Origin: an uncultured bacterium
Lineage (GTDB): Bacteria; Cyanobacteriota; Vampirovibrionia; Gastranaerophilales; Gastranaerophilaceae
DNA length: 64,000 nt
NCBI GenBank assembly: GCA_902761735.1
Contig: CACWLL010000001.1
Location: 62,001-126,000, forward strand
Direction: 5' to 3'
The notes below the pieces were generated by a model. The model had not been told where the DNA came from. It saw nothing but the letters and a program-made list of their open reading frames with translations, and did not search any database. Position numbers and translations under genes: made by a program. Below are positions 26,272 to 58,819 of the stretch, in pieces. Position 1 is the first letter of the stretch. Every line of letters starts with the position of its first letter.

Positions 26272-26282
26272 GGAGAAAATTT

Positions 26283-26909: not shown

Positions 26910-26933
26910 TCTTTATAAATTTTATAATCGTTT

Positions 26934-26961: not shown

Positions 26962-27050
26962 ATAAAGAACAATTTATCCAAATATGATTTTAAATTTAAT
27001 AACGAGCCTGTTGAACACTTTTTGAACAACATTTGAAACCACATTAACAA

Positions 27051-27272: not shown

Positions 27273-27406
27273 ATTTCCTCCTTATATCAGGAAACACATT
27301 AGCTCGAAAGACAGCAAATAGCATTTAAATGTTTACATAGCAACACATTCGGTTGATTTCCTATTTATTGTAATCGATTAATGTTAATAACCGAAAGGAG
27401 CACAAT

Positions 27407-27607
27407 ATGGTTGAAAAAGATTATCAATTATACGGGACAAAGATTTTGAATTTAAAAACTCAAGAAATCGGTTTGCTGATTTGCATTTGGCAAAACAAAT
27501 TTGCTGATAAAACTGTGGACTTTGCAACCTGTGTTGATAAAACCGGCAAGCGATACAACATTGAACTTGATAATATCAGAGGGTTCGAAGATGATTTTGA
27601 AAAATAA
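27407..27607 (+). CDS. small hypothetical protein
   Basis: 66 residues with GAAAGGAG before the ATG. Predicted small beta-rich fold (I-L-N-L-K-T-Q-E-I-G-L-L-I-C-I-W). Overlaps the next small gene by 17 bases, so the two are translated together. Family unknown. Confidence 0.6.
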   Translation: MVEKDYQLYGTKILNLKTQEIGLLICIWQNKFADKTVDFATCVDKTGKRYNIELDNIRGFEDDFEK

Positions 27608-27818
27608 AAGAACCAGAGAAACATTAGAATTAACCTTACATGAATTTAAAACTCGCTTTGCGAAAGAGCTTAAAAGAGCATTTGAAAGTTATAAACAAAC
27701 AGAACTGGCAAAGCCATATTTCAAAATAAAAAATGTCGATGAAGGCGATTTTTATTTTGACCTGCAATGGAATTTCAATCACCATGCCTGTTCTGATTGG
27801 TATATTGCCAAAATATAA
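27591..27818 (+). CDS. small hypothetical protein overlapping the previous one
   Basis: 75 residues from the internal ATG; the longer frame starts inside the previous gene with no ribosome site. GAGGG lies before the chosen start. It has a basic amphipathic helix (L-T-L-H-E-F-K-T-R-F-A-K-E-L-K-R-A) and an aromatic C-terminus (W-N-F-N-H-H-A-C-S-D-W-Y). Family unknown. Confidence 0.6.
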   Translation: MILKNKRTRETLELTLHEFKTRFAKELKRAFESYKQTELAKPYFKIKNVDEGDFYFDLQWNFNHHACSDWYIAKI

Positions 27819-27831
27819 TTTATGTCCGTTT

Positions 27832-27859
27832 TTGACATAGCAATCTTCTAATATAAATT
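27832..27859 (+). promoter_or_regulatory. possible promoter of the restriction-modification genes
   Basis: TTGACA at 27832-27837, then TAAATT after 16 bases (27854-27859). The -35 lies inside a TATGTC/GACATA inverted repeat (27821-27839), so it could be controlled or be a transposase-type site. Confidence 0.45.
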
Positions 27860-27929
27860 TATAAGAGTAACAATTTACAAATTGCCATGAATGTACTCTT
27901 GTTGTAATATTAATATAGGGGAGAATTGC

Positions 27930-30900
27930 GTGTTAATCAGGGAACTGGTAGAAAAATATGAAAGCGATCGGGAATATTATCTTTCTGACAGATACAATGA
28001 GACACTTTTAAGAAGTGATTTTCTGGATGTATTTTTTGAATTACTTGGTTGGGATATAAAAAACACATCAGGTAAATCGACTTTCGAAAGAGAAGTAATT
28101 CTTGAAGAAGGTTTACATACTGGAAATTCCTCTAAAAAACCTGATTATACTTTTAGATTATTTAATGATAGGAAATTTTTTCTTGAAGCTAAAAAACCGC
28201 ATGTAAAAATTGAATCTGTAGATGAACCTGCATTTCAAGTTAGGAGATATGGCTTTACTGCGAAATTGAAGATTTCTGTCCTTTCAAACTTTGAATATTT
28301 AATTATTTATGACTGCTCTGCTCCGGTAAAAGAACAAGATAATCATAATACATATTGTGTAAAAAAATATCATTATACGGAATATGAAGAAAAATTTGAA
28401 GAAATTAAAAGTATACTTGGAAAAGAAGCTGTATATAATGGTACTTTTGATAAACATTGGGAAAGTATAGAAAATCAAATTCAAACATACAGTGTAGATA
28501 ATTTATTTTTAGATCAAATCAATAAATGGAGAACTTTGTTAGGTCAGGCTTTATTTGAGATTAAAGATAATATTGACGAAACGCAATTAAATGATGTCAT
28601 TCAGGCATACATAAATAGTATTGTATTTTTGAGAGTCTGTGAAGATAGAAATATTGAGCAATATCAGTCATTACTTAATATTAAAGATTCAAATGAAAAT
28701 AGCAATAAATTAATTGAAAAATTACAAAACGCTGACAATTATTACAATTCAGGTATATTTGAGCTTCCGTATATAAATGAGTTTTTATCTAAAAAATCTA
28801 ATATTTTTTGGCAGATAATTTCAGATTTATATTACCCAAATAGTTCCTATTCTTTTTCAGTATTATCATCTGAAATTCTAGGAAATATTTATGAAATCAT
28901 GCTTCAAGATAAGCTTTATATTAAAAATGGTGTAGTTGAATTAGGTAGAAAACCGGAAAATATTGACCGAGATATTGTTACAACCCCCAGTTTTATAATA
29001 CGGGAGATAATAAACAAAACCATTAAACCCTATATTGAAAGTAATGGAAATGATGTTTTTAAAATTAAAATTGCAGATATAGCTTGTGGTTCAGGAGCCT
29101 TTTTATTAGAAAGTTTCCAATACTTAAATGATTATCTTATTGACTATTATAAAATTCACGATACATCAAAACTATTATCAACTGGTGTTGGAACATATAA
29201 GTTAAAATACGAAATAAAAAAAGATTTGTTAACAAAATGTTTTTATGGTGTCGATAAGGATTATAATGCTGTAAAAACAACTGAATTTGGTTTACTACTA
29301 AAACTATTAGAAGATGAAAACACAGAATCCCTTCCCCAAAGACAAGTATTACCAAAGTTAAATAAAAATATATTTTGGGGAAATTCCTTAATATCAAATG
29401 ATATGGTTAATAATAATGACATTGCTTGTACTATCAATGCTTTCGACTATGGAACTAAAAAATTTGATATAATCATTGGCAATCCGCCCTATATGAAAAC
29501 AGAAGATATAAAAACCTTTACCCCATTAGAAAAACCTATCTATGAGGATAGATATAGATCTGCTTACAAGCAATATGATAAATATTTTCTTTTTATTGAA
29601 AGAAGTCTACAGTTACTTAATAAAAATGGGATAATTGGTTATATTTTACCTAATAAATTTATGAAGGTTGGTGCAGGATTAGAATTAAGAAAATTATTAA
29701 AAGAAAATAAAAATATCAATGAGATTTTATCTTTTGGTGCAAATCAAGTTTTTAAGGACAAAACTACTTATACAAATATATTAATATTAACAGAACAACA
29801 GAATCAGCAAATTCAGTATTCAGAAGTAAATAATTTAAATGATTGGTTACTACGTCATTATAATGTTGACGAATATTCTAATCAGATTGATTTTTCAAAT
29901 TTATTAGATGATGTTTGGGTTATGTATCCAAAATATTTAGAAACCATATATAACAAAATCATTCAGAATACTACTTGTCTAAAAGATTTCGTAGGTAGTA
30001 ACAATATTTTAAATGGTATACAAACTAGTCGTAATGATTATTTTGTATTTAAGCCTAAAAGGGTAGACGAAAAATATTATTATTTTGATAAAAATGAAGA
30101 AGAATTTAAAATTGAAAAAGAAATTGTAAGACCATATTATGAAACCCCTAATGCAGAATCTGATGATAGTTTAAGTACATATAAAAGATTTGTCCCAAAT
30201 AGTTTTGTAATATACCCATATAAGCTAGATAACGAGCAAATCAAATTTATTGAGATGGGTGAATTAAAAGAGAATTATCCATATTGTTATGAATACTTTA
30301 CTGAAAATAAGGAAAAATTTATCTACTCTGCAAAAGGAGGAAAGAGGGACATTAAACCTGCTGTAACTACAGAAAATGAATGGTATCGGTATGGTCGGCA
30401 ACAAGCTTTAAAAATTGGAGATATTAAAAAGAAAATAATTGTAGGAGTTCTTTCTCAAGGTGACAAATATGCTATTGATAAATGTCAAACGCTTATATCA
30501 TCAGGAGGTACTGCTGGATATTGCATGATAGTTCTACCGGAAAATTCCCAATATTCAATATATTACTTGCAGGCAATATTAAATTCAAAGTGTTTGGAAT
30601 GGCTTGCATCACTTAATGGAGAAATTTTTAGAGGTGGTTATATTGCCAGAGGTACTAAAGTTTTAGAGAAACTTCCTATAAAAACAATTGATTTTACAAA
30701 TAAACATGAAAAATTATTGCACGATAATATTTCTTTGTATCAAGAAAAATTAATAGAAATTAATGAAAAAATGATTTTAAACAAAGATAATCATAGGCAA
30801 TATGAAGTACATGAGAATGAGTTTAAAAGAACTAAACAAATGCTTGATAATGCACTGTTATCATTGTATGGTATGACACAAGAGGAATATAACAAAATTC

Positions 30901-30932
30901 CTAATATAAAGGATTTTTATGCAGTTAATTAA
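27930..30932 (+). CDS. bifunctional restriction-modification enzyme, Eco57I type (type IIG)
   Basis: 1000 residues. The N-terminal nuclease domain has a PD-(D/E)xK signature, P71-D72 and E86-A-K88. A helical linker follows, then a gamma-class N6-adenine methyltransferase with motif I A-D-I-A-C-G-S-G-A-F at 382-391 and catalytic N-P-P-Y at 518-521, and a C-terminal TaqI-like recognition domain (about 650-980). The architecture and size match R.Eco57I. I start at GTG because AGGGGAG lies six bases before it; an ATG 13 codons upstream has no such site. The last 14 bases overlap the second methyltransferase gene. Confidence 0.88.
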   Translation: MLIRELVEKYESDREYYLSDRYNETLLRSDFLDVFFELLGWDIKNTSGKSTFEREVILEEGLHTGNSSKKPDYTFRLFNDRKFFLEAKKPHVKIESVDEPAFQVRRYGFTAKLKISVLSNFEYLIIYDCSAPVKEQDNHNTYCVKKYHYTEYEEKFEEIKSILGKEAVYNGTFDKHWESIENQIQTYSVDNLFLDQINKWRTLLGQALFEIKDNIDETQLNDVIQAYINSIVFLRVCEDRNIEQYQSLLNIKDSNENSNKLIEKLQNADNYYNSGIFELPYINEFLSKKSNIFWQIISDLYYPNSSYSFSVLSSEILGNIYEIMLQDKLYIKNGVVELGRKPENIDRDIVTTPSFIIREIINKTIKPYIESNGNDVFKIKIADIACGSGAFLLESFQYLNDYLIDYYKIHDTSKLLSTGVGTYKLKYEIKKDLLTKCFYGVDKDYNAVKTTEFGLLLKLLEDENTESLPQRQVLPKLNKNIFWGNSLISNDMVNNNDIACTINAFDYGTKKFDIIIGNPPYMKTEDIKTFTPLEKPIYEDRYRSAYKQYDKYFLFIERSLQLLNKNGIIGYILPNKFMKVGAGLELRKLLKENKNINEILSFGANQVFKDKTTYTNILILTEQQNQQIQYSEVNNLNDWLLRHYNVDEYSNQIDFSNLLDDVWVMYPKYLETIYNKIIQNTTCLKDFVGSNNILNGIQTSRNDYFVFKPKRVDEKYYYFDKNEEEFKIEKEIVRPYYETPNAESDDSLSTYKRFVPNSFVIYPYKLDNEQIKFIEMGELKENYPYCYEYFTENKEKFIYSAKGGKRDIKPAVTTENEWYRYGRQQALKIGDIKKKIIVGVLSQGDKYAIDKCQTLISSGGTAGYCMIVLPENSQYSIYYLQAILNSKCLEWLASLNGEIFRGGYIARGTKVLEKLPIKTIDFTNKHEKLLHDNISLYQEKLIEINEKMILNKDNHRQYEVHENEFKRTKQMLDNALLSLYGMTQEEYNKIPNIKDFYAVN

Positions 30933-32523
30933 GAATGCAACAAAACAAAAATTAAGAGGTGGATTTTATTCACCAAAAACAATATCTGATTTTATTCTCA
31001 GATGGGCTTTTAATGGCAATAAACACTGCGATATATTAGAACCTAGTGCTGGGGATGGTGTTTTTATTGAATCTTTAGTCGATGGGAAATATGAATATAA
31101 TTCAGTTACTGCAATTGAAATCGAAACAGAAGAAGCTAATAAAATAAAAAAGATCCCGGCAAAAAACTTAAATGTATTTGAGCAGGATTTTCATAAGTAC
31201 TGCAATAATACAAAAGATGCTTATGACATTATTGTTGGTAACCCCCCGTATATTAGATATCAATATTTTGATAAAGATCAACAAAAAGAGGCTGGAAAAA
31301 TATTCGATAAAAATAAAATAAAATATTCAAAATTAATGAATTCGTGGTGTGCATTTGTTGTAGGGTGTACGAATTTATTAAAAGAAAACGGTAAATTAGG
31401 ATTTGTGTTACCTGCTGAATTATTGCAAGTTTCACATGCAAAATTAATAAGAGAATTTTTAATTAAAAATTATGAAAAAATTTCTATTGTTTCATTTAAG
31501 AAATTAGTATTTGATACTATTCAACAAGATGTAGTTTTATTATTGTGCCAAAAGGGTAGTGGAATACCACATATAGAATACATAGAGACAGAAGATGATA
31601 AAACTTTGCAGGATTTGGATTTATATAAATTAAAAAATCCAATAAAAAACATTCATAATTCTTCGAAGTGGACAAATTATTTTTTAGATCAAAAAGAGCT
31701 GGATTTTTTAGAAGAAGTAAAAAACAGAAAAGATTTATATAGGGTAAAAGATTTGGCTGATGTAGAAGTCGGCATCACCACTGGCGCAAATGACTTTTTT
31801 ACAGTGAATAAAAGCATTATAGATGAATACAACCTTTCTAAATATTCATATCCATTAATAGGGAGAAGTGTTTTAGTAAGTGGAATAACTTTTAACACAA
31901 AGAAAGCTAAACAAAATATTGATAACAATGCCAAAGCTAATATTTTAATTTTTCCTAAATTACAAGAATTGAAAAAAAATAAATCTGCAATGAAGTATAT
32001 AGAGTACGGAATTCAAGAAGGCTTTGCAGATGGGTACAAGTGTAGAATAAGAGATGAGTGGCAAATTATACCATCCATTTCATTATCAAATGCATTCTTT
32101 TCCCGCCGTAACAACAAATATGCAAGAATGATTTTAAATGAAGCGAATGCATATACAACTGACACTATGCACAGAGTGCATATTAAGGATGGTATTAATA
32201 GAAAAGCTTTTGTAGCTAGTTATTATAATTCATTATCATTTTGTTTTGTTGAACTTGAGGGCAGGAGCTTTGGTGGAGGTGCACTTGAACTTATGCCATC
32301 TGAAGTGTCCAACATAATTATTCCATATGTTGAATCTGCAGAAGATTTATTTAATGAGATAGAAAGTGTATTTAGCAAGAAAAAAGATGTTAATAAACTT
32401 TTAGACTATACAAATAAAATTTTACTTAAAGATGAACTTGGTTTTGATATTAAAGATATAGAATTGTTTGTATCGGTTCATAATAAATTATTAGAAAAAC
32501 GTCTAAGAAGAAAAATGAATTAA
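30919..32523 (+). CDS. companion N6-adenine DNA methyltransferase, M.Eco57I type
   Basis: 534 residues. Motif I I-L-E-P-S-A-G-D-G-V-F-I at 39-50 and catalytic N-P-P-Y at 108-111 in I-I-V-G-N-P-P-Y-I-R-Y. The recognition domain follows the catalytic part, with V-G-I-T-T-G-A-N-D-F-F around 288-298. Size and partner match M.Eco57I, which protects DNA alongside the bifunctional enzyme. Overlap with the preceding gene implies coupled translation. Both genes are unusually AT-rich, consistent with transfer. Confidence 0.9.
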   Translation: MQLIKNATKQKLRGGFYSPKTISDFILRWAFNGNKHCDILEPSAGDGVFIESLVDGKYEYNSVTAIEIETEEANKIKKIPAKNLNVFEQDFHKYCNNTKDAYDIIVGNPPYIRYQYFDKDQQKEAGKIFDKNKIKYSKLMNSWCAFVVGCTNLLKENGKLGFVLPAELLQVSHAKLIREFLIKNYEKISIVSFKKLVFDTIQQDVVLLLCQKGSGIPHIEYIETEDDKTLQDLDLYKLKNPIKNIHNSSKWTNYFLDQKELDFLEEVKNRKDLYRVKDLADVEVGITTGANDFFTVNKSIIDEYNLSKYSYPLIGRSVLVSGITFNTKKAKQNIDNNAKANILIFPKLQELKKNKSAMKYIEYGIQEGFADGYKCRIRDEWQIIPSISLSNAFFSRRNNKYARMILNEANAYTTDTMHRVHIKDGINRKAFVASYYNSLSFCFVELEGRSFGGGALELMPSEVSNIIIPYVESAEDLFNEIESVFSKKKDVNKLLDYTNKILLKDELGFDIKDIELFVSVHNKLLEKRLRRKMN

Positions 32524-32587
32524 TACAATATCATCATTATAACTCATATAATATAATAAAATAAATACTAGAGAAAAAATACAATAA

Positions 32588-33727
32588 ATGGGCAGAGAAA
32601 TAAGTAAAGATATTCAAAGAAGGTTATTTGCAGAATCTATGGGGCGATGCATGAATCCTGATTGCAAAAAAGAGTTATTTTCAAAAAATGGAGACATTAT
32701 TGAAAAAGCTCACATAAGACCATATTGTGATACTGCTGATAATTCTTTTGAAAATTTAATTGTTTTATGTCCCAATTGTCACACGGACTTTGATAAAAAC
32801 TTCGCATATAAAGCCAAGGAAGTTAAACAATGGAAACAAATTAGAGAGAGTGAGTTAAATTCATTTTTTAGTATAAGGTGTTCATCTTTTAATGATTTAA
32901 AAGATAAAGTTAAGCCATTGTTATGTGAAAATAAAACTATTTACGAAAACTATTATTTAAGTGGGAATAAAGATTTATGGGACAAGTTTGAATTTAAAAT
33001 ATTAGTTAATAATCGAAAATTAAAAAATATATTATCTAATAATTTGGCATTAATACAAGATTCCGAAGATAAAGATAACTCAAACTTGAATCTAGTTCAA
33101 TTATTTTTAACTCATGTAGATGAATTTGAACAAAGTAGATTGGATGAAGAAAAGAAAAGGCAAATTTTGTTTCCTGAAAAAATTAATTCTTTGTTTGAAG
33201 TTGCTCCTATAGATGATTCTTTTATACCATCTGTCGAATCATTGGAAATATTTATATCAAAATTGCAAAATGAAAATAAATTTATAAATATTTTTTTGGG
33301 AATTGATTTACCCTATATATCGATATGTAATTCTGGGAAAGTATCAAAGATTTACTTAAAAGATACCCCGAGATTAAGACAATATTATTATGATTACAGG
33401 TGTTATCGTCGTTCCTCAGTCCGTTTGAATAGTCTCAATTTTGCATTAAAATATATCAAATCCAGAGGGATAGAGTTTAAATTTTATGAGTATAACAATT
33501 TGCGAGAAATTGAAATTAAAAATAAGAAAATGATATTTGTTTATGAGTATTGCCTAAGTAAAGTTTTTTTAGCAAATTTATGCCCCGATTCTAGTAGTAT
33601 TATAGTTAATCTTCATAATTGGAATGGATCACTTTGTATATCGAATGAAGCATATGAATTTGCAAACTTAATAAATGTTGAACTACTTGATATGGACATG
33701 TTTTATAAATATGTTAAACAATTGTAA
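32588..33727 (+). CDS. HNH endonuclease with long uncharacterised C-terminal region
   Basis: 379 residues. The first 85 form an HNH nuclease: H42 (E-K-A-H-I-R-P), N56 (F-E-N-L-I-V-L) and H65 (C-P-N-C-H), with zinc-type cysteine pairs C21/C26 and C61/C64. Residues 90-379 match nothing I know; they contain several strand-rich stretches and may sense or bind a partner. The final 17 bases overlap a minimal nucleotidyltransferase gene. It stands 64 bases after the methyltransferases but has its own spacing and a weak ribosome site, so it may be a separate module. Confidence 0.85.
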   Translation: MGREISKDIQRRLFAESMGRCMNPDCKKELFSKNGDIIEKAHIRPYCDTADNSFENLIVLCPNCHTDFDKNFAYKAKEVKQWKQIRESELNSFFSIRCSSFNDLKDKVKPLLCENKTIYENYYLSGNKDLWDKFEFKILVNNRKLKNILSNNLALIQDSEDKDNSNLNLVQLFLTHVDEFEQSRLDEEKKRQILFPEKINSLFEVAPIDDSFIPSVESLEIFISKLQNENKFINIFLGIDLPYISICNSGKVSKIYLKDTPRLRQYYYDYRCYRRSSVRLNSLNFALKYIKSRGIEFKFYEYNNLREIEIKNKKMIFVYEYCLSKVFLANLCPDSSSIIVNLHNWNGSLCISNEAYEFANLINVELLDMDMFYKYVKQL

Positions 33728-34022
33728 TAATAAAAATTATGCTTTGAATTTAATCAAACAAAATATTAATTTGTTTGAACCATTTAGCAATGTTTTTTTA
33801 TTTGGTTCTGTTTTACATTCAAGAAAAAAACATCATGATATTGATATTTTGTTAATATATTCAGTTTATTCAGAACAGTTATTAGAAAATGTAAATTATA
33901 TATACAACACCTTAAATAATACAAGTAAATTACCAGTGGATTTAACAGTACTTAGCATAGTCGAAGAAAAAGAGCTTCAATTCCTTAAAAAACAAAATTC
34001 AAATTATTTAAGAATCAAATAA
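33711..34022 (+). CDS. minimal nucleotidyltransferase (MNT type)
   Basis: 103 residues. The nucleotidyltransferase signature is complete: G32-S33, D43-x-D45 (H-H-D-I-D-I-L-L-I) and a third acid D77 (L-P-V-D-L-T-V-L). Such small MNT proteins are usually the antitoxin of HEPN/MNT toxin-antitoxin pairs, where they AMPylate the toxin. Here the partner in the overlapping gene is an HNH nuclease and no HEPN gene is visible. The start was moved to an ATG 12 codons into the longer frame, giving a 17-base overlap and coupled translation. Last gene before the right end. Confidence 0.82.
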   Translation: MLNNCNNKNYALNLIKQNINLFEPFSNVFLFGSVLHSRKKHHDIDILLIYSVYSEQLLENVNYIYNTLNNTSKLPVDLTVLSIVEEKELQFLKKQNSNYLRIK

Positions 34023-34921: not shown

Positions 34922-35386
34922 CTACTTATTTGTCAACATTTTATCAAAATCTTTTATGTCCTCAATAGCTTTTGCCAAGATATCTTCCGAAGTTTCTTTT
35001 GGGGCAACAAATAATAAATCTTCGCCGGCTTTTGGCACACTTCCGGCTCTTCGCCTAACTCCATTTTGTACATTACCAAGCGTTAAAAATCTATATTTTT
35101 TATTTTTCTTGCCAAATTCAAACGTTACTGTATCATTTTGAGCAAATTTGTCAAATTTTGATGTTTTTTGGGTGCGATAATAAACATCCAAAATTTCATC
35201 AGCTTTAAAGAAATCTAATATTTTCCCAATCAAACTTTTTGGAGTTCCTTCTTTTAAAAAGGTATCTATTGCTTCACTTTTACATATTGCATCATGTATT
35301 TTATCAGGAAAATTTTCAGGCTTGTTGATTTTTAAATATCGAGCGCTAAATGAAATATTATTTGTATCGTTTATAGAATTAATCAT
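34922..35386 (-). CDS. leaderless protein with N-terminal F-S-A motif
   Basis: 154 residues, no signal peptide. N-I-S-F-S-A-R-Y at residues 10-17 is the short motif shared with other small proteins of the window. A single globular domain follows, with a basic patch (K-K-N-K-K-Y-R-F) in the middle. AAGGAAGG precedes the ATG. Family not recognised; likely specific to the lineage. Confidence 0.65.
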   Translation of the reverse strand: MINSINDTNNISFSARYLKINKPENFPDKIHDAICKSEAIDTFLKEGTPKSLIGKILDFFKADEILDVYYRTQKTSKFDKFAQNDTVTFEFGKKNKKYRFLTLGNVQNGVRRRAGSVPKAGEDLLFVAPKETSEDILAKAIEDIKDFDKMLTNK

Positions 35387-44500: not shown

Positions 44501-45574
44501 ATGGGTGACGAGGACAAGCAATATGACGCCACGCCGCGTAAATTGGAACAGGCTCGTAAGGAAGGTCAGGTTGTAAAATCTAAAGACTTTTCCATGGCAG
44601 TGTCTTTGTTGGTACTGTTTTCCGTTATTTTTGGTTTGGCAAGTTTCATTTGGAATCAAATATCTCAGCTATATACCCTTTTATATGAACAAATTCCGAA
44701 TGCACACCTCGGGAAAATCGGATTAACATACATCTTCACCGTAACAGCTAAATCTGCGGTTCTAATTATTGGTCCAATCCTTTTTATTGCCTGGTTGGTT
44801 GCAATCCTAGCAGATTTTATACAAGTGGGACCGCTCGTTGCAATTGCTCCTTTAATGCCTAAACTTGATAAATTAAATCCGACAAAATACTTTAAAAATT
44901 TGATGTCTGTTAAAACTTTGTTTGAACTGTTTAAAAATATAGTAAAAGTTTCTTTATTAGGATTTATAGGCTACTCCGTTTATATGTCACACATTGAAAA
45001 CATTCTTATGCTTGCTGCTATTGATAACAATTTCTCAGTTATGATTGAATTCGGGAAACTGATTACAGAATTTATTTTTAAAGCGTGCATTGCGTTTTTG
45101 GTTATTTCTGCAGCAGACTACGGTGTAACAAAATGGAAGTTCTTAAAAGACCAAAAAATGTCATTTAAAGAAATTAAAGATGAATATAAAAATACAGAAG
45201 GCGATCCAAATGTAAAAGCAGCACTCAGACAACGTCGTATGCAAATGTTGCAAAGAGGGATGATGGATGCTGTACCCGAAGCGGATTTCGTTGTAACAAA
45301 TCCTATTCACGTAGCCTGCGCATTAAAATATAAACAAGAGGAGATGGAATCACCTACACTTATAGCAAAAGGTACAGAGTTAATAGCTAAAAAAATAATA
45401 TCTATTGCAAGAGAACACGGAGTTCCGGTTATCGAAAACCCTCCGGTTGCACGTGCATTGTTCAAGATGGTAGATTTAAACCAGCAGATACCTCCTGAAA
45501 TGTACAAAGCAGTAGCCGAAATTTTACTTTTTGTTTACAACTTGAAAAATAAACAAAATCAAGGTAATATATGA
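44501..45574 (+). CDS. flhB: type III export switch protein FlhB
   Basis: 357 residues: a charged start (Y-D-A-T-P-R-K-L-E-Q-A-R-K-E-G-Q) typical of FlhB/SctU, four membrane segments within 31-205, and a cytoplasmic C-terminal domain with the self-cleavage site N-P-I-H at 267-270 (usually N-P-T-H). In flagella and injectisomes this protein switches export substrate class after cleavage between N and P. The next gene is a FliA-like sigma factor, which favours a flagellar origin. No other export gene lies in the window. Confidence 0.88.
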   Translation: MGDEDKQYDATPRKLEQARKEGQVVKSKDFSMAVSLLVLFSVIFGLASFIWNQISQLYTLLYEQIPNAHLGKIGLTYIFTVTAKSAVLIIGPILFIAWLVAILADFIQVGPLVAIAPLMPKLDKLNPTKYFKNLMSVKTLFELFKNIVKVSLLGFIGYSVYMSHIENILMLAAIDNNFSVMIEFGKLITEFIFKACIAFLVISAADYGVTKWKFLKDQKMSFKEIKDEYKNTEGDPNVKAALRQRRMQMLQRGMMDAVPEADFVVTNPIHVACALKYKQEEMESPTLIAKGTELIAKKIISIAREHGVPVIENPPVARALFKMVDLNQQIPPEMYKAVAEILLFVYNLKNKQNQGNI

Positions 45575-45596
45575 AAAGGATAGTAGTACCTTTATT

Positions 45597-46262
45597 ATGA
45601 TTATGCAAGACAAAAACAATAAAATTCAAGAATATATAGATTTGGTTCAAAAAGTAGCCAGAGTCGAATTTAATCGTATTCCATCGCATATGCTGGATTA
45701 TGAGGAACTGTTATCCATAGGTATAATCGCTATCCATGCCCTTATCAAAAACAAAACTCCTGAGCAGCTTGAAAGATACAACAATGCATATGTTGCAACA
45801 GGTGTACGTTGGGCTATCCGTAACGAATTAAGAAGAAGGTACAAATGGTATACTCTCAAGTATAAAAATGAAGCTGAAGAAAGTGAAGAACTTGAGGAAA
45901 GCGAAGGAGATACACAGAAATCAAAAGTTCGTGAGGCTATCTATGAAACGGTCTTGTCAATAGAAGGTCTATCCGAAGCTGCCAGTGAAAATGATTCTCC
46001 GTTTGACTTTTTAAAAGACAATCATGCTATGCCTGACGAGAATGCAGAAATCTCCGAAATGGGCAGAATGATAAGGGAAGCCATTTCGAAACTCCCGCCG
46101 AAAGAAAGAACAGTAGTAGAATATCGTTTTTACAGAAATATGCAGGTAAAAGATATTGCTACTCAAATAGGGCTATCTCCCTCTCGAGTTACTCGTATTG
46201 TCCAATCATCCCTAAATACAATAAAAGAATATTTGCACGAACATGAACAGTATGATTATTAA
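45597..46262 (+). CDS. FliA/WhiG-like sigma factor
   Basis: 221 residues with sigma regions 2 (V-E-F-N-R-I-P-S-H-M-L-D-Y-E-E-L-L-S-I-G near 23-42, W-A-I-R-N-E-L-R-R-R near 72) and 4 (L-P-P-K-E-R-T-V-V-E-Y-R-F-Y, then I-G-L-S-P-S-R-V-T-R-I). Region 1 is absent. The R-I-P-S...D-Y-E-E-L pattern is characteristic of the sigma-28 family. A glutamate-rich insert lies between. The gene follows flhB by 22 bases, so it probably belongs to a motility or secretion regulon. Confidence 0.85.
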   Translation: MIMQDKNNKIQEYIDLVQKVARVEFNRIPSHMLDYEELLSIGIIAIHALIKNKTPEQLERYNNAYVATGVRWAIRNELRRRYKWYTLKYKNEAEESEELEESEGDTQKSKVREAIYETVLSIEGLSEAASENDSPFDFLKDNHAMPDENAEISEMGRMIREAISKLPPKERTVVEYRFYRNMQVKDIATQIGLSPSRVTRIVQSSLNTIKEYLHEHEQYDY

Positions 46263-46264
46263 CC

Positions 46265-47869
46265 CTATTTGCTTGTTGAAGGGACAATTTCTACACGTTT
46301 GTCATCAATGATTTCAAACGGTTGCGGAAGCTTTTTGATATATTCGCAAGCTAATTTATTTTTGTCAAAATCATATTTCTTGATTACAAAATCAGGGTTT
46401 GCGTTTGTCGGTAAGTAATTGTCACCGCCGGTTGCAAAGAAATCATCCGAGGCTACCGTAAATTTACGTTCCGTACTTGGGTTATTAACATCAATAGGAT
46501 GTTCTGTACCATTTTTGTCAATATATGTTAATGAAAGCAATTCACCTTTGTCACTCAATTTATATTTCATCCCGGAGAAATATAAGATACCCGGTTTGTG
46601 GCTGCTGCGGGTAAGAGATTCCGCGCCTACTTTAATAGCGTCTACCAAATCCTTTTCGCTTAATTCATTAACCCAAATTTTATCTTCAAAAGGTGTAATA
46701 TCATTAATCAATCGGGAATCAACTGGGCCTTCGCTAAAGTGTCCTCTTATATTTCCCGCATTGAGAACTGCTATATCCACACCCAATTCAGCTCTCATAG
46801 CATCAACAATCAAACCACCGTGAGGATTATATTCGATAAGTCTGTTTGTTGGTGGTTTTGGAGCTTTGGATACACGTCCTATAATTTCAGGCTTACCTAT
46901 TATACCCTCGACAGCCGTTCTTATAGGAAGGGTTCTGTTAAAGCTTCTTGTTTTTACCGTATTATTTTGAACTTTTGTAATAACACCGTCTTTGTTAAAT
47001 TCAACATTCAAAATTCCGACATTTTCACCATCTTTACCATATTCTGTCAGAATTACGGGTTCTCCAGATTTTGAATATAACAAGTTTTTACCTTTTTCTA
47101 TTCCGGAAACCAGCTCGTGGGTATGCGCACTATGTATAATATCTATTCCATCCGTACTTTGTGCAAGCTTTCTGTCATTTTTCAAACCGCTATGAGAAAG
47201 AACTATTATTTTATTAATTCCTTCTTCTTTTTTTAGCCTGTCAACTTCTTCTTGAACAAGATTTATCGTAGTATCCAAATCATCAACAGTAACATCTTTT
47301 ACAGAATCATTTAGCTTCACACGTTCTGCCATATCCGAAGGCGCTATACCGATAATTCCGTATTTATGACCGTTATCTTCGTATATAAGAGATTTGCCGA
47401 TTTTTCCATACATAGGACTGTCTTTGGCAACATGTGCATTTATTGCAAGGAGTTTATAATCGGCTTCTCCCATTAATTGTGCCAGTTTTGAAGGGACAAC
47501 ATCAAGCTCATGGTTTCCTAGAGTATTTGCTTTTACTCCAACCCAATTCATAAATTTGTTTGCAACTTGATTTGAAACAAAATTTGCGCCCAAAATAAAA
47601 TCACCCGAAGAAACTTTTAAAGAGTCTGTATCTTTTGGTAAAGTTCTGTCAAATTGCTTTGATACGGAATAAATTCTTTCCATATTGGTCATTTTTCCGT
47701 GAACATCATTTATCGCCAGAATTGAGGTTTTAACAACACCGTTATTATCGGCATCCGCACTATCCGGTTTAGGATTAACCGGAGTCGCAACGACTTGCGG
47801 AGTCTGCAAATTCCCAAATTTTACTTTGGAATTATATTTTGTATAAAATGCCGGTGTTATGGTATTCAT
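46265..47869 (-). CDS. 5'-nucleotidase/UshA-type metallophosphoesterase without signal peptide
   Basis: 534 residues. Metallophosphoesterase domain: N-D-V-H-G near 54, S-G-D-F near 87, G-N-H-E-L-D near 117, H-S-G and H-S-A-H-T-H-E further on. The 5'-nucleotidase C-terminal domain follows (N-A-G-N-I-R-G, then A-S-D-D-F-F-A-T-G-G-D-N-Y). Members are normally secreted, yet this one starts with a polar segment (Y-N-S-K-V-K-F-G-N at 12-20) and no Sec signal. The S-K-V-x-F motif matches the 34381 protein. Converges on the sigma factor, two bases between stops. Confidence 0.9.
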   Translation of the reverse strand: MNTITPAFYTKYNSKVKFGNLQTPQVVATPVNPKPDSADADNNGVVKTSILAINDVHGKMTNMERIYSVSKQFDRTLPKDTDSLKVSSGDFILGANFVSNQVANKFMNWVGVKANTLGNHELDVVPSKLAQLMGEADYKLLAINAHVAKDSPMYGKIGKSLIYEDNGHKYGIIGIAPSDMAERVKLNDSVKDVTVDDLDTTINLVQEEVDRLKKEEGINKIIVLSHSGLKNDRKLAQSTDGIDIIHSAHTHELVSGIEKGKNLLYSKSGEPVILTEYGKDGENVGILNVEFNKDGVITKVQNNTVKTRSFNRTLPIRTAVEGIIGKPEIIGRVSKAPKPPTNRLIEYNPHGGLIVDAMRAELGVDIAVLNAGNIRGHFSEGPVDSRLINDITPFEDKIWVNELSEKDLVDAIKVGAESLTRSSHKPGILYFSGMKYKLSDKGELLSLTYIDKNGTEHPIDVNNPSTERKFTVASDDFFATGGDNYLPTNANPDFVIKKYDFDKNKLACEYIKKLPQPFEIIDDKRVEIVPSTSK

Positions 47870-47886
47870 TTGCTTATCCTTTCGGG

Positions 47887-49347
47887 TTATGCCGCAGATT
47901 TTATTTGTGGTTTATTGTTTAATTCTTGTTCTTTTTTCATTTCTTTGTAGTTTTTAAGTCCTTCAACCCAATTTTCAACTAATTCAACATCGTTTTCTAC
48001 AACTTCTTTCGGCAAAGCTGCATGATGAATTTTTGGGAGAAGATAATCTTCCGTATATTCAATCGGTTTAGATAAATTATCGTCAGTATCATTACAGATA
48101 AAGGTTAATTTTCCTGTATTACTGTCTTTCTTATAACCCACAACAGTAATTTCATGACCGTTAATTATTATATTATCATTATCTGTTTGAGTATAACCGA
48201 GAATTACATTTTCACCCATATTTATCGAGTCAGTTATGTGTTTCTTTAATGTTTCCATATCGGTTTCATAACCTACCAAACGAGCATTTTCATCTACGTT
48301 TTGATAAGTAACTGAAATCTTATTTTTATCTTCTACAATAGATTCAACAAATGTTTTTTCAAACTCAATCAAACCCTTTTCATTTTGATTAAATTTACCT
48401 GCCCTCTTATCAGAAAGAGCATTATATGCTTGTTGAGAACCTACCTGCATAAATGTTGACTGCATAAGAACATCAATCGGAGTTCTTTCTTCAGGGTCTT
48501 TATCTACTGTTTGAATTTTTGCTCTTACAAGAGCATTTTCATCAGGTTTAAAGTTTAATACAGAAGTTTTAAAATCATTTTCCTTGTGCGGGATTTCAAA
48601 TGCATTCAAAAGCCAAATAGCATCAAGAGCATTATCTGCAAGCTTATCCAAATGGATTTCTTTTTCTACCTGATTTTTAGAAGACGATAATCCTTCCGCA
48701 AATCTTGCAAACTCGGCAGGTTGAGCCTGAGCAAGATTAAATTCAATACTGGCAGCAACACAAGTCCCTGAATGAGTAATATTTATCTCGTTCATTGAAA
48801 CAATTTTTGCATTATTGTCTGATTTATTTCTGTTTGTTGAAGTCATATATTTATCAAGAGCAGCTTCCTTCATATTCGTCGGGATATTTCCGAATTGTTG
48901 TGTAATCAAATAGGGATTATCAAGAGTGTCAATAACGTCTTTCACAAGAGATTTAGCATCCAAACCCTCTGCTCTTGGAGTGCTTAAAATATTATATAAA
49001 TTGTCTAATACAGATGAATTATCATTTGAGGATGAATTTAATAAAATACCGCTTTTTAGCAATGAATCCAGTTTTTTGCGGGTATGCTTATCTATTGATT
49101 GTTGGAGTGTATTATACTTACGCACCTCATCACCGGAAGAAAGTTGTGTTCTTAATTGTGATGCACAAAAAGCCGGATTGAAAGGTACATTTTTCATCGA
49201 GTTTTTATGAAAATCCAATTTAGTTTTTTGTACATTAGCATCGACGTCAACCTTATCAACAGGAGCTGTATCTACTGCCCTTGATGAATCCTGACCGTAA
49301 GCGCAATTATAATAATTTTGATTTACATAATTATTGTATGTGAACAC
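47887..49347 (-). CDS. putative papain-like cysteine protease, leaderless
   Basis: About 486 residues. I see a possible Cys-His-Asn/Asp triad: C196 in H-S-G-T-C-V-A-A-S at the start of a helix, H398 in I-I-I-N-G-H-E-I-T-V-V-G-Y, and N419/D420 in F-I-C-N-D-T-D-D-N, an order and context like papain-fold (C39/C1-type) peptidases. The first 190 residues are polar and helical with no signal peptide. It is 17 bases before the nucleotidase on the same strand. Start GTG chosen because GGAG stands eight bases upstream; another GTG three codons earlier lacks spacing. Confidence 0.65.
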   Translation of the reverse strand: MFTYNNYVNQNYYNCAYGQDSSRAVDTAPVDKVDVDANVQKTKLDFHKNSMKNVPFNPAFCASQLRTQLSSGDEVRKYNTLQQSIDKHTRKKLDSLLKSGILLNSSSNDNSSVLDNLYNILSTPRAEGLDAKSLVKDVIDTLDNPYLITQQFGNIPTNMKEAALDKYMTSTNRNKSDNNAKIVSMNEINITHSGTCVAASIEFNLAQAQPAEFARFAEGLSSSKNQVEKEIHLDKLADNALDAIWLLNAFEIPHKENDFKTSVLNFKPDENALVRAKIQTVDKDPEERTPIDVLMQSTFMQVGSQQAYNALSDKRAGKFNQNEKGLIEFEKTFVESIVEDKNKISVTYQNVDENARLVGYETDMETLKKHITDSINMGENVILGYTQTDNDNIIINGHEITVVGYKKDSNTGKLTFICNDTDDNLSKPIEYTEDYLLPKIHHAALPKEVVENDVELVENWVEGLKNYKEMKKEQELNNKPQIKSAA

Positions 49348-49456
49348 TACTGACACTCCACTATTATATATTAATAAAAAACAAAACTCAGAAAAAATTG
49401 CTATTTTTATTCTGTTATTTTAATTTATGTAAACTATTGTAATATTCAATATATCC

Positions 49457-50464
49457 ATGTACAATTTACTTGTGGATATGGAGAAATTAAAATTTAAACC
49501 AATGGCTTGGGAGAGGCTTATTATATCTTTTGATAGGCTTACTCGCTTTAAACATCCCGAGGAAAAATATACAAGAGTTTTCAGAGATATTTTAACATCA
49601 AATCTGATAGCACCAAAATTTAAAAAATCTGAATTAGAGAAAATGGGTTATCGAGATTTAACAGAAATTGCGCAGTATATAATAAATGAATCTTTAAAAT
49701 TGTTACTTGACGATTACACTGGGTCTGACGGTTATATAAATTATCTTTTGCACACATTTGAAAATTCCGTATTTTTTATTGACGAGAATACATCTGTTTT
49801 GTTAGATAATAAAATTAACTACGGAGCATTTATAACTTTATTAGATAATGATATTCCGTTAAATTTAAAGTGGTTGAAGCTTATTGCAGCGGCAGAAAAC
49901 CCTATTGAAGATAGTTATAAATTAGGATTTAGGTATCCTTTAAAGAAACTTGTTCTGTGCGAAGGTATCACAGAAGAAATTTTGTTACCTGCGTTTGCAG
50001 ATTTACTGGATTATAATTTTGATAAAAACGGGGTACAATTAATTTCCGCAGGCGGTAAAAATCAGGTTGTAAAGTTGTTTTATAAGTTTGCAGAGCAATT
50101 AAAAATTCCGATATTTGTTCTGCTTGATTCGGATGCAGAGCAGAATGCAATTGAAATTGAGCCGAAATTAAGAAAACATGACAAAATATACAGAATTGAA
50201 TCGGGTGAATTTGAGGACATATTACCTAAAAAACTTGTCGAAAAATCATTAAAATCTTCAATAAAAAACATTTCCCTATCCCCTGAAAAAGAAAGCGATT
50301 ATTCAGAAGGCACAGTTCATTATTTGGAAGAATTTTACAGAACAAGAGGAGCCCATGAATTTAAAAAAGCCGAATTTGCCCATATTGTAAAAGAAAATAT
50401 AAGCGGTGTTTCTGATGTGTCCGAAGAATTTGTAAAAATTATAAACGAATTAAAATCCCTATAA
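49457..50464 (+). CDS. TOPRIM-domain protein (OLD-like, no ATPase)
   Basis: 335 residues. The C-terminal part from about 170 is a TOPRIM fold: L-C-E-G-I-T-E-E-I with the catalytic glutamate, then L-L-D-S-D-A-E with the paired aspartates, and E-S-G-E-F-E-D-I-L-P, as in OLD-family nucleases. The ABC-type ATPase that normally precedes it is missing; the N-terminal 165 residues are helical and unrecognised. Could be a nuclease acting in repair or defence. Start uncertain: ATG codons at 49457 and 49475 are both weak. Confidence 0.7.
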   Translation: MYNLLVDMEKLKFKPMAWERLIISFDRLTRFKHPEEKYTRVFRDILTSNLIAPKFKKSELEKMGYRDLTEIAQYIINESLKLLLDDYTGSDGYINYLLHTFENSVFFIDENTSVLLDNKINYGAFITLLDNDIPLNLKWLKLIAAAENPIEDSYKLGFRYPLKKLVLCEGITEEILLPAFADLLDYNFDKNGVQLISAGGKNQVVKLFYKFAEQLKIPIFVLLDSDAEQNAIEIEPKLRKHDKIYRIESGEFEDILPKKLVEKSLKSSIKNISLSPEKESDYSEGTVHYLEEFYRTRGAHEFKKAEFAHIVKENISGVSDVSEEFVKIINELKSL

Positions 50465-54441: not shown

Positions 54442-54792
54442 ATGAGTCGCATAAACAGGATAGAGCCCAGTTTCGGGGCAGTAAAACTTAACCCGAATTG
54501 TCCAAATATTGCAAACTATCTCGATAGTTTACCAAAATCGCAAGCTTTGGCAATTGAATCAATGGCAGAAAAGGCCAAATTCGATAAAATCGATGTTTAT
54601 CTTTCAACAATATTTAAAAGCTTTAAAGAACGTCTTGTGGCTGAAGTTGGAAGCAAAAAATATACGGAAAATTTTCTGCAAGCCCCTGACTATGTAGTAT
54701 ATAGAGCAATTGCAAGAGCAAAAAAAATCGAAGCTCAACAAAATTTTCAAAATGAAGTCAGCAAAGGAAGAACAAGACCAACAATAAAATAA
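54442..54792 (+). CDS. small leaderless protein, N-terminal F-G motif (paralog A)
   Basis: 116 residues. P-S-F-G-A-V-K-L at 9-16 is the short motif found in several window proteins. The C-terminal half, V-G-S-K-K-Y-T-E-N-F-L, aligns with V-G-D-K-I-F-V-E-N-F-F of the next gene, so the two are paralogs. No signal peptide. AAAGGAG precedes the ATG. It could be co-transcribed with the U32 and YqeG genes. Confidence 0.65.
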   Translation: MSRINRIEPSFGAVKLNPNCPNIANYLDSLPKSQALAIESMAEKAKFDKIDVYLSTIFKSFKERLVAEVGSKKYTENFLQAPDYVVYRAIARAKKIEAQQNFQNEVSKGRTRPTIK

Positions 54793-54804: not shown

Positions 54805-55167
54805 ATGAAAACAAGCTTGCAAACATATAATCCGACATTCGGAATGCCGGTCAATAATTTAAAGGAAATTCCCGTTGTAAATAGAATTATAAAATATAAC
54901 TATGCAAGGGAAGGGAAGCTTTTTGGAACTTCTTATGACAAAATTCATAAAATTGCAAAAGCTGAAACAAATAATCCCTATAACATAAATCTATCCGTTA
55001 TTGAAAAAAAAGATGGAGAAAAATTGCGTGCAATTGTAGGGGATAAAATTTTTGTAGAGAATTTCTTTAATGACCCTGTTGATGTTGTATCTAAAGCCGT
55101 AAAATACTCGCATAAGCTTATAAAAGAAAATGGCAATACTGAAAGCAAATTTAAAATATTCGAATAG
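54805..55167 (+). CDS. small leaderless protein, N-terminal F-G motif (paralog B)
   Basis: 120 residues. N-P-T-F-G-M-P-V at 9-16. Shares its C-terminal half with the preceding protein. No signal peptide or membrane segment, and a weak ribosome site. Function unknown. Confidence 0.65.
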   Translation: MKTSLQTYNPTFGMPVNNLKEIPVVNRIIKYNYAREGKLFGTSYDKIHKIAKAETNNPYNINLSVIEKKDGEKLRAIVGDKIFVENFFNDPVDVVSKAVKYSHKLIKENGNTESKFKIFE

Positions 55168-55243: not shown

Positions 55244-58200
55244 ATGTCTGTAAACAATATAAAAAACCAACTACAGAATTTTAAAACAGCAGAAGACATC
55301 ACCGCTGCAAGGAAAAGCGGCAAGATTGACGTATCTGTTGAAACTGAATTGCGTAAATTTTTTGGGAAAATAGATTCTAATGGAGATGGTAAAATCTCAG
55401 ATGACGAGTGGAGCAAGGGAGATAAAATAATTGAAGATAACCTAAATAATGAAATAAAACAAAAAAATAAATCAGATGCTGCATCTGAGACTCATGCTGC
55501 GCATGAGTCTAATAATTCCTCAACAGATGAATTTCCGAAAGATGAAGATGGCAATATTATTACATACCCTAAACATGGCGAAACTTTTCAAAAAACCGCT
55601 GAGCGTTTAGGTTTTAAAGAGGGTACTCCGGAATATGAAGAGTTTGCAAAGGCAAATAAAGATGCTCAGAAACGTAAATGGTTTAACGTTGGTGATGAGG
55701 TAAAAATTCCTCCGTCAATACAAGATAAAATTGATAAAAACGGCATAATCTCGAAAGAAGAAGGTGACGCTGAAATAGATAAATATTGGGAGTGGGAAAA
55801 TGAACGTAGTCGAGATGCTGGAAGTTCAGAAGAGAGTGGCGGAGAGCCTACGCTAACAGAAAAAGGCAGACCTAAAGGTTCAGGTTCAGTATCAGGTGGG
55901 GGCAAGTCTTCAGGAACCGGAGAAATTCCACGTTCAGGAAGACATTCAAGGTCAGGAGAAGTTGGCAAGACAGACAATACACCGTCGCAGGATAAAACAA
56001 GAACCACTCCCGAAAAAAATAAAAATTCTGCTCCAAAAGTTCAACCTAGAGAAAAGGCTAACGAAGCTCAAAGAAAACAAGCAAAAATTTTAGCACAAAA
56101 ATTACATAAACAAATTCAAGGTGCCAGCATGAATTCTAATACTATTGCCATGCTGAAAGAAATAAATGATGAGAATGTTGTATATGTAATGGATGAATAT
56201 AAAAAGCTTACCGGCGGTAAAGAAACCCTCGCACAGGCTGTTGAAGCAGAATGGGGGTTAGATAGCAATACGGTAAAACAGTACATATGTAAACCCCTTG
56301 TCGGATATGCTAAAAAGCACGGTGTTACGGGAGTGTATTACGGCGACTATATGAAAAAAAATGATATGGAGCAAATCAATAAATGGATTCATAACGCAGA
56401 AACCAGAATTAATCAAAAAGTTGAAATCAAACCTATGGCAAATGCTCAACAGGTCAAGAAAAAAGAAGCTGCAGCTCCCACACATGTTAAACAGATTGCA
56501 GAAGATTTTAAAAAACGATATGGAGGCAATGCCAAAGTCACATACAATCCAAAAACCGAATATTATGAAGTAACACTTACAGACGTAAATAATAAAGATA
56601 TAAAACAAATGAAATGGGTTGTATCAGAAAAGCCTTGGCAAGACAGCAACAGTTTTGACGGTTCTGTTTCCAGAGCATACGAAAAAGGTAAAGCTACCGT
56701 AAACAAGGGAACATACAATAACGGAATAGCAGTACTCGCCGGTGCATATAAAGGAATAAAAGCCGGTATAAAAAGTGCATATAATGACTACACGGCAGTA
56801 AAAAATATTCAAGCAAAAGATTATATTGTTTCCGAACAAATAACCTATGCTGATGGTAAAGTTACAGATGGAAACTATGGACGAGGTAGCGTTAAACAAA
56901 ACAAATTAACAAAAAGTTCTAGCACAAAAACAAAAGAGGAAGCAAAACTAAATACCGCAGCAGATATCTCAATTGAAAATACTATTGGAATGCATAAAAA
57001 CGGTAGAGATTTTTCTAAGTCTCTGACTAAAAATAAAGCAGATTTAATGAGGACTTTAAATATAGATAACGATACATATAACATGCTCGCTCAAACCGCA
57101 ATCGGTATAGCGGGTAAAGAAACCCGTTACGGAGCTTGGGTAACGAAAGATGAAAATGGGGACACTGATATCAACTACAGTCTTATAGGAAAAGACTCAT
57201 TGGATTATATTGGTGCAAGATCTGTAGTAAAAGAAATGGCCGCAAATGGCAGTGCAAACTCTGTAGGTCTGACTCAATTAAAATTCGGTTTACACTCTAA
57301 AGACCCAAAAATTAAGCAACAACTTGCTCACTTTGGAATAACCAAAGAAGAAGATTTAAAAGACCCTGATAAGTCAGCTATCGCAACGGTAATTGTTCTT
57401 AACAGCATGAACAATCAATTAGACAGCCAACATTATAAAAATGCTATGGCTGCCGCAGAAGGAAGAACTGTTTATGTCAAAGGTTGGAAAATGGGCGAAG
57501 ACGGCATAGCTAAAAAGACTAATGACGGGTCAACTAAACCATGGAAAAACCACGTTTCAAGACAAGATGCTTTATGTGCTCTTTGGAATGGTGGACCTAT
57601 GGCAGAATCGCTCTCGAACGGTAGATTTGAGCCTCAAACTTGGGCTTATTGCAGAGAAGTTCGCGGTTTCTCTAATAAATATAATGTTAAAGAAACAAAA
57701 GAGTCAAGGGCAGCTGCAGTTCAAAAAGAGGAAGAAACAAGAGCCTTTAAGAATATGGATAATACTGGTGAAATGGGCGGGATTTCTTTCATGCCTGCAA
57801 TGTACACTGATAAGCAAAAACACATGAATACACCTGTTGAAATAAAATCATTAAGAGATACCTTAACTGCAAAAGGCTTAGATTCTAGTCTTACAAGACA
57901 ACTTTGCAATGCAATGCAAAACGGAGAAATTGGATTTGATTTCGGCTTAACTAAAGAAGAAATAAATTCGCTTACAAACGCTGATATCAAACTTATACTC
58001 AAGCATTTAAATCAATTAAAATTAAAAATTAATGTAAACACCGGAGATGGAATAAGTGCAAATGAAGCATCCACATTAAGAAATACCTATGCATCGACCG
58101 TAGGTAATGCTGACAATGCATTCAGGACAGAATATCTTAACAATCACAGTAAAGTATATAATGATAACGGCAGCAACAGCGTATTAAGAGAACAGAGTAC

Positions 58201-58819
58201 CGACCCTGGTTCCAGTAACTATGTAGACAAATACGGTCAAAGACGAGGCTTTCGACATGAGCAAAATCGCGGAGTAAACACGCGAACTACAAAAGGAACT
58301 ATCAGTCCTCAACAAAACGTACTTGCACAATCTGCATATAATGTTGCAATGGATAATCCTAATAATTTAAAATCCGGCAACTGTTTGGATGGAGTAAAAA
58401 GAGCAATGAGAAACGCCGGTATTGACGTTAGCGGAATGTCAAAATACGGAAACACTCCTAAATACGTTAAAAATTGGTTTGATGCAAACCCTAAAATGTT
58501 TACACAGGTAAAAACCGTTGCAAATGCTGACGGATCAACAAGAGCATTAAACTATTCTGATTTAAAAACCCTTCCTGCGGGATATATAGTTCTTTGGATG
58601 CCTGATAGCAATAGCGAATATGCGGATCAAGCAGGACATTCAGCAATTACAAACGGATATGGTCAAGGTAGCGGAGATGCTACAGACAATCTTGAATGGG
58701 GAGCCTATACTACATCAAACAATACTTCGGGTAAAGGTGAACACGGGCATTTTGTAGTTTACAAATTATCTGACAATTGGGAAGTAGATGCCAATGGCAA
58801 ACTTGTATTTAAGGGATAA
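55244..58819 (+). CDS. large leaderless protein with EF-hand, LysM-like, lysozyme-like and CHAP-like domains
   Basis: 1191 residues. A canonical EF-hand loop D-S-N-G-D-G-K-I-S-D-D-E is at 44-55. A LysM-like segment lies about 100-150, then a Ser/Gly/Pro-rich linker to 270. A lysozyme-like transglycosylase domain appears near 610-830 (G-I-A-G-K-E-T-R-Y-G with candidate E625, S-V-G-L-T-Q-L). The last 160 residues resemble a CHAP/NlpC amidase with C1047 (G-N-C-L-D-G-V-K) and H1131 (A-G-H-S-A-I-T-N-G). So it should cut peptidoglycan, yet no signal peptide is present. GGAG precedes the ATG. Converges with uvrB without a gap. Confidence 0.75.
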   Translation: MSVNNIKNQLQNFKTAEDITAARKSGKIDVSVETELRKFFGKIDSNGDGKISDDEWSKGDKIIEDNLNNEIKQKNKSDAASETHAAHESNNSSTDEFPKDEDGNIITYPKHGETFQKTAERLGFKEGTPEYEEFAKANKDAQKRKWFNVGDEVKIPPSIQDKIDKNGIISKEEGDAEIDKYWEWENERSRDAGSSEESGGEPTLTEKGRPKGSGSVSGGGKSSGTGEIPRSGRHSRSGEVGKTDNTPSQDKTRTTPEKNKNSAPKVQPREKANEAQRKQAKILAQKLHKQIQGASMNSNTIAMLKEINDENVVYVMDEYKKLTGGKETLAQAVEAEWGLDSNTVKQYICKPLVGYAKKHGVTGVYYGDYMKKNDMEQINKWIHNAETRINQKVEIKPMANAQQVKKKEAAAPTHVKQIAEDFKKRYGGNAKVTYNPKTEYYEVTLTDVNNKDIKQMKWVVSEKPWQDSNSFDGSVSRAYEKGKATVNKGTYNNGIAVLAGAYKGIKAGIKSAYNDYTAVKNIQAKDYIVSEQITYADGKVTDGNYGRGSVKQNKLTKSSSTKTKEEAKLNTAADISIENTIGMHKNGRDFSKSLTKNKADLMRTLNIDNDTYNMLAQTAIGIAGKETRYGAWVTKDENGDTDINYSLIGKDSLDYIGARSVVKEMAANGSANSVGLTQLKFGLHSKDPKIKQQLAHFGITKEEDLKDPDKSAIATVIVLNSMNNQLDSQHYKNAMAAAEGRTVYVKGWKMGEDGIAKKTNDGSTKPWKNHVSRQDALCALWNGGPMAESLSNGRFEPQTWAYCREVRGFSNKYNVKETKESRAAAVQKEEETRAFKNMDNTGEMGGISFMPAMYTDKQKHMNTPVEIKSLRDTLTAKGLDSSLTRQLCNAMQNGEIGFDFGLTKEEINSLTNADIKLILKHLNQLKLKINVNTGDGISANEASTLRNTYASTVGNADNAFRTEYLNNHSKVYNDNGSNSVLREQSTDPGSSNYVDKYGQRRGFRHEQNRGVNTRTTKGTISPQQNVLAQSAYNVAMDNPNNLKSGNCLDGVKRAMRNAGIDVSGMSKYGNTPKYVKNWFDANPKMFTQVKTVANADGSTRALNYSDLKTLPAGYIVLWMPDSNSEYADQAGHSAITNGYGQGSGDATDNLEWGAYTTSNNTSGKGEHGHFVVYKLSDNWEVDANGKLVFKG

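Follow-up and report, generated by a model that had tools for sequence, protein, structure and literature searches.

A flagellum-derived export gene set in Gastranaerophilales and two leaderless enzymes encoded beside flhB as its candidate substrates

A 64,000-nucleotide stretch of DNA from an uncultured member of the Gastranaerophilales (positions 62001-126000 of contig 1, hereafter the window) carries flhB and a gene for a FliA-like sigma factor, which face the genes of a 5'-nucleotidase and a papain-fold cysteine protease, both leaderless. Why do such enzymes stand beside a component of a type III export gate, and could they be exported through it? Members of the Gastranaerophilales are common in the gut and for the most part uncultured, and their incomplete flagellar genes have hitherto been taken as loss. 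The evidence leans, by a small measure, towards a different picture, namely a rod-only, flagellum-derived export system with both enzymes among its leaderless substrates. The FlhB encoded at 44501 very probably belongs to a separate export apparatus distinct from the flagellum, as judged from sequence comparison. That the two enzymes are its substrates is an evenly balanced proposition, based on leaderlessness, disordered tails and conserved synteny.

An export gene set apart from the flagellum

The host genome (2.0 megabases in 24 contigs, completeness 99.98%) was compared with an order-wide sample of 56 members of Gastranaerophilales. The non-flagellar export genes of the kind found in the host are called here the B set, and the true flagellar gate genes the A set. 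G044 is a flagellated member of the order and G104 another member, while G078 and G057 are other members of the class.

The earlier note on this DNA made a link to type III export hinge on the remaining export genes, and these turn out to be present in the host and conserved order-wide. FlhA is encoded at full length on contig 2 and the single FliP on contig 4. One run of genes encodes FliE, FliF, a 356-residue protein, FliH and FlhA; a second encodes a FliN-like protein, FliO, FliP, FliQ and FliR (FliQ and FliR being assigned by position, size and relatives). FliJ, FliK-like and FlgF/G-like proteins are encoded in a third place, a cluster of two FlgF/G-like, one FlgB-like and one FlgC-like protein in a fourth, and FliI in a fifth. 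FliF scores below its equivalog cut-off, and the rod proteins were recognized by FlgEFG subfamily and FlgB/FlgC-like matches. Flagellin, FliG and the P-ring protein FlgI were sought in the host genome and gave no match, and its only secretin adjoins PilB/PilC-like, type IV pilus-like genes. Host FlhA lies below both the flagellar equivalog cut-off (695 vs. 772 bits) and that of the SctV model (582 vs. 692 bits). The alternatives that the earlier note had offered, a flagellar-type or an injectisome-type system, call for qualification: the export genes make up neither a flagellum nor a secretin-type injectisome.

The FlhB of the window is the sole FlhB of the host genome and exceeds the cut-off of the NCBIfam flhB model (357 vs. 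349 bits). At its autocleavage-type site, 56 of the 84 FlhB relatives have NPTH instead of NPIH. The ratio of nonsynonymous to synonymous substitution rates (dN/dS) is 0.014-0.028, with synonymous sites close to saturation. The adjoining sigma factor is FliA-like but divergent, since it scores 79.3 bits against the FliA/WhiG subfamily model, the cut-off being 189.6. Its gene adjoins flhB in other families of the class too. A second sigma factor of G044 (L097:4563-5219) shares 37% identity with the flhB-linked one.

FlhA was found in 56 of 57 relatives and falls into score classes of about 870, 720 and 150 bits, the last comprising the C-terminal part only; FliP shows two score classes. Flagellin occurs in 28 genomes, and A-type gate genes are present in 27 of these 28 and in none elsewhere. 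An intact-looking B-type FlhA is found in 27/28 order members without flagellin, and the genomes having no match to it are mostly incomplete assemblies. The B set is near-universal in the order, and flagellin and the A set are present in half of the 56 members.

G044 carries both sets, and the B set is for that reason hard to take for a flagellar relic. Its B-set proteins resemble those of the host closely (FlhA 78% identity, FliP 76%, FlhB 66%, FliR 57%, FliF 50%, with FliE, FliH, the FliN-like protein and FliO lower than FliF), as compared to 37, 46, 35 and 30% for A-set FlhA, FliP, FlhB and FliR, respectively. The A-set FlhA of G044 reaches 857 bits, above the flagellar equivalog cut-off. 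The B genes of G044 form a single stretch from flgB to flhA, which ties together the clusters scattered in the host genome. In the FlhA tree, the B set is a clade of its own (support 100/100) and falls outside the flagellar FlhA proteins (85/86), which came from the order itself as well as from three other phyla; the depth of the B-set clade is unsure because of long branches.

Two features of the set deserve separate mention. The proteins encoded between FliF and FliH, the usual place of FliG, have no Pfam match (L005:9706-10776, L098:14491-16024), and G044 has two copies. In addition, almost all of the order encodes a protein of about 490 residues (L008:16376-17854 on contig 10, L099:13538-15019) that comprises the cytoplasmic C-terminal domain of FlhA alone, preceded by a DUF4177-like start and lacking any membrane segment; its gene in G044 adjoins FliJ-FliK-FlgD-FlgE-like genes.

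Two leaderless enzymes beside flhB

The four genes that the earlier note had read at 44501-49347 are borne out by Pfam, NCBIfam and model evidence (Table 1), as is its statement that the two enzymes have no signal peptide. No hydrophobic leader is seen in any of 70 nucleotidases from the loci found via the protease, a set of 80 that is biased by its query. Five protease rows of the same set were flagged as hydrophobic at the N-terminus, which we read as an artefact of an over-long first start codon. As for the protease of the window, the longest open reading frame starts at 49356; the GTG at 49347 appears the likelier start, with GGAG located 8-9 bases 5' of it and orthologues starting close to the matching position.

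Table 1. Features of the flhB locus (window positions)
Feature	Position	Strand	Basis
flhB, B-set export gate, 357 amino acids	44501-45574	+	Pfam Bac_export_2 PF01312, 1.8e-113
FlhB autocleavage-type motif NPIH, residues 267-270	45299-45310	+	alignment with relatives
FliA-like sigma factor	45597-46262	+	FliA/WhiG is the best family match
Leaderless 5'-nucleotidase, UshA/CD73 superfamily, candidate substrate	46265-47869	-	metallophosphatase and 5'-nucleotidase C domains (Pfam)
Nucleotidase N-terminal tail, polar, variable, about residues 1-45	47735-47869	-	alignment
Nucleotidase N-terminal F-motif VKFGN, residues 16-20	47810-47824	-	sequence
Leaderless papain-fold cysteine protease, candidate substrate	47887-49347	-	predicted structure, alignment; likely start GTG at 49347
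Protease N-terminal tail, disordered, conserved island with consensus QYNYNT	49156-49347	-	model and alignment
-10-like element TATAAT	49363-49368	-	upstream of the protease
Conserved upstream box TAGCAATTTT	49394-49403	-	orthologue upstream regions
OLD-like TOPRIM protein, conserved neighbour	49457-50464	+	Pfam and synteny

The nucleotidase shares both domains and the metal-site residues with the UshA/CD73 enzymes, and its solved relatives (CD73, UshA and similar) are extracytoplasmic. It differs from them in having, in place of a signal peptide, a variable polar tail: between two members of the genus, the identity is 26% over the tail vs. 76% over the remainder.

The protease has no family match in a Pfam search, and its profile has no significant match among PDB sequences. 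An AlphaFold2 model shows a well-formed body of papain fold preceded by residues 1-67 with a predicted local distance difference test score (pLDDT) below 50. In structure comparison, the model matches papain-fold peptidases (interpain A, staphopain, C39-like peptidases, phytochelatin synthase) at Z 10-11, and C199 and H401 are invariant among orthologues; unlike those peptidases, the window protease is leaderless. By its predicted fold and the Cys/His pair it is a papain-like cysteine peptidase of putative activity. Within the tail, the QYNYNT island is kept in orthologues while the linker varies.

Convergent placement of the nucleotidase and the protease next to flhB-sigma recurs across many genera of the family, with outer neighbours that differ. 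The nucleotidase lies near flhB-sigma in 15 of 17 family genomes whose loci were found via FlhB. Among the protease-found loci, biased as they are by their query, the order protease-nucleotidase-sigma-FlhB is kept in 60 of the 61 that hold FlhB. Judging by gene order, this neighbourhood is more than chance.

N-terminal tails and a recurrent motif

Leaderless proteins of the order frequently begin with starts such as MQIQKFDNTTFQGY or MINSINDTNNISFSAR. The F-motif was defined as [VPTI][STN]F[GKTQRSN][AGN] within residues 6-35 and compared with protein interiors. It is enriched N-terminally in the host, G104 and G044 with odds ratios of 4.3, 5.3 and 10.3, respectively. In G057 and in G078, the latter a genome without any FlhB-family match, the enrichment is not significant. 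A looser form occurs in an M16 peptidase encoded directly after fliR and in the flagellar FliK of G044; flagellar FliK is an expected type III export substrate. The genome was sampled as stretches, and the list of motif-bearing candidates comes from those. Two other descriptions of the N-termini were rejected: a free search for enriched dipeptides and tripeptides yielded just a polar N/S/T/Q bias, and a looser F-G pattern showed no enrichment in the host genome.

Most protease orthologues carry TAGCAA with a T-run 5' of the gene. This box is found upstream of starts 37 times vs. 4.7 expected (about eightfold), many of the cases being the protease itself. Genes with the box encode more polar N-termini (P=2e-4) and have leaders more rarely (1/25 vs. 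352/1565, P=0.015). With the two enzymes excluded, the association between the box and the F-motif is not significant.

Several further leaderless proteins were observed. The M16 peptidase (L019:15156-17972) and a 4-alpha-glucanotransferase-like protein encoded directly after the gene of the FlhA C-terminal domain (L008:17892-19931) both have an extra polar N-terminus. In the window, a leaderless protein of 1191 residues (55244-58819) gives an EF-hand-like match and a weak one to lytic transglycosylase (SLT), neither reaching the Pfam cut-off; a leaderless peptidoglycan-acting enzyme would be a further candidate substrate. Positions 34922-35386, 54442-54792 and 54805-55167 of the window encode short proteins that lack a leader, carry the F-motif and fall into no Pfam family.

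Competing readings and known systems

In the mechanism that we favour, leaderless proteins with polar disordered tails would bypass Sec and travel in an unfolded state by way of the FlhAB-FliPQR gate and the rod. The nucleotidase and the protease beside flhB would be two such substrates acting outside the cytoplasm, and regulation of the system probably involves the flhB-linked sigma factor. The suggestion in the earlier note that the two enzymes are substrates thus keeps its grounds in the missing leaders, the disordered tails and the conserved synteny, with substrate status itself inferred. If the reading is true, the order has a near-universal means of sending enzymes to its surroundings and represents a large living example of flagella giving rise to secretion systems; the analysis also names specific proteins as candidates for secretion. 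A bolder version, which we put forward tentatively and hold to be rather doubtful, is that the B set is a third type III lineage, rod-only and with a soluble FlhA C-domain protein, that serves as a general Sec-independent route of gut Gastranaerophilales, delivering dozens of motif-marked leaderless proteins, including the nucleotidase and the protease, to the gut or the host.

A number of points weigh against export of the enzymes by the B set. Two family genomes found via FlhB (L127, L128) keep flhB-sigma without the two enzymes nearby, and where the enzymes are present their convergent genes do not form one operon with flhB-sigma. No outer-membrane pore was identified for the B set. The F-motif occurs in a small percentage of proteins; because it was framed after sequences of the order had been viewed, its P value in the host is not independent. 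Its spread is a correlation, and shared ancestry could account for part of it. G057 has a B-type FlhB-sigma pair, yet the motif is not enriched there, a result that says little because the N-termini of G057 are proline-rich throughout. The Salmonella-type FxxxPhi gate recognition motif is not evident in the two enzymes from their sequences: a scan gave 37/80 for the protease vs. 25.5 in shuffled sequences and 5/58 for the nucleotidase vs. 10.2. Bryant 2022 (PMC8983047) reported that early flagellar subunits carry two export signals; the likeness here is limited to a polar tail whose start includes some hydrophobic residues, and the second signal is not evident.

In a second explanation, the B set works, building a rod-like structure or exporting other proteins, while the enzymes are cytoplasmic and the gene order is inherited without a link in function. 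The convergent arrangement, as opposed to co-transcription with flhB-sigma, speaks for it, and the C-terminal TOPRIM neighbour is equally conserved in place with no evident export link. However, the block stays constant while its outer flanks vary between genera, the solved relatives of the nucleotidase act outside the cytoplasm, and the tails, variable and disordered around a conserved island, are compatible with a targeting tag. We regard this explanation as unlikely, though a serious contender. The tails could also be tags for another secretion system or anchors to a surface or compartment, with the B set uninvolved, and the motif-bearing set is indeed far broader than the proteins encoded near export genes. 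This is improbable, given that motif bearers include the M16 peptidase after fliR and the flagellar FliK of G044, and that no other exporter came to light in the sampled stretches, which do not cover the whole genome. Decay of export genes left over from a lost flagellum, with unrelated enzymes next door, agrees with the missing flagellin, FliG and FlgI matches and with the interpretation of such sets as loss by Soo 2014 (PMC4040986) and Di Rienzi 2013 (PMC3787301), but is hard to reconcile with the second, different gate of flagellated relatives such as G044, the separate FlhA clade, the low dN/dS of FlhB and the intact-looking B-type FlhA in nearly all members without flagellin, and we consider it very improbable.

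In the open literature, these genes count as signs of flagella that are incomplete or lost. Di Rienzi 2013 described two flhA genes in ACD20 and saw MEL.A1 as losing its flagellum, and Soo 2014 described incomplete flagellar gene sets. A search of the open literature turned up no description of type III secretion systems in this group (subscription papers were outside the scope). The host set has the flagellar gate (FlhA, FlhB, FliP, FliQ, FliR), the ATPase FliI, FliF, FliE and rod proteins; missing from the flagellar inventory are flagellin, FliG, FlgI and an FlhA above the equivalog cut-off. Abby and Rocha 2012 (PMC3459982) recognized non-flagellar type III secretion systems by the presence of a secretin and the absence of flagellum-specific genes. 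The host set departs on both counts, having no secretin of its own and containing FliE and FlgB/FlgC-like proteins.

Three known systems come close. The filament-less basal bodies of Buchnera aphidicola (PMC8109811) likewise have gate, rod and ring genes without flagellin and motor genes, and an export role has been proposed for them with no secreted proteins known. They are remnants of the sole flagellum of that bacterium and keep hook genes and flgH, whereas the B set has candidate substrates and forms its own lineage, found in relatives side by side with a true flagellum. The non-flagellated Lysobacter enzymogenes (PMC7277350) also has flagellar-type export without a flagellum. The system is functional there, with a reported role in twitching motility and heterologous flagellin as the demonstrated substrate; the present set is order-wide and distinct from the flagellar genes. 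The non-flagellar systems of Myxococcales (PMC3459982) are similarly secretin-less, clade-conserved and formerly annotated as relics. They have no FliE or FlgB/C, whereas the B set has FliE and FlgB/C/F/G-like proteins and a gate closer to flagellar than to SctV models.

In public genomes, relatives of the protease mostly carry the labels Candidatus Gastranaerophilales, Melainabacteria, Scatousia or gut bacteria, with a few under other names; the host was assigned to Gastranaerophilales on this ground. A family of proteins starting MG(L/M)(A/S)ASQARLL.(I/L)TA with varied bodies (L013:17260-18018, L016:12310-13434, L017:3828-5507) has no Pfam match above the cut-off, and related short proteins occur in G057. 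Finally, the window contains a stretch of 26-31% guanine-plus-cytosine content (about 22693-34022) with transposase-like, ATPase-like, two large methylase-like and HNH-like genes recognized by eye, and a transposase-ATPase pair at L022:918-3649 resembles the pair found there.
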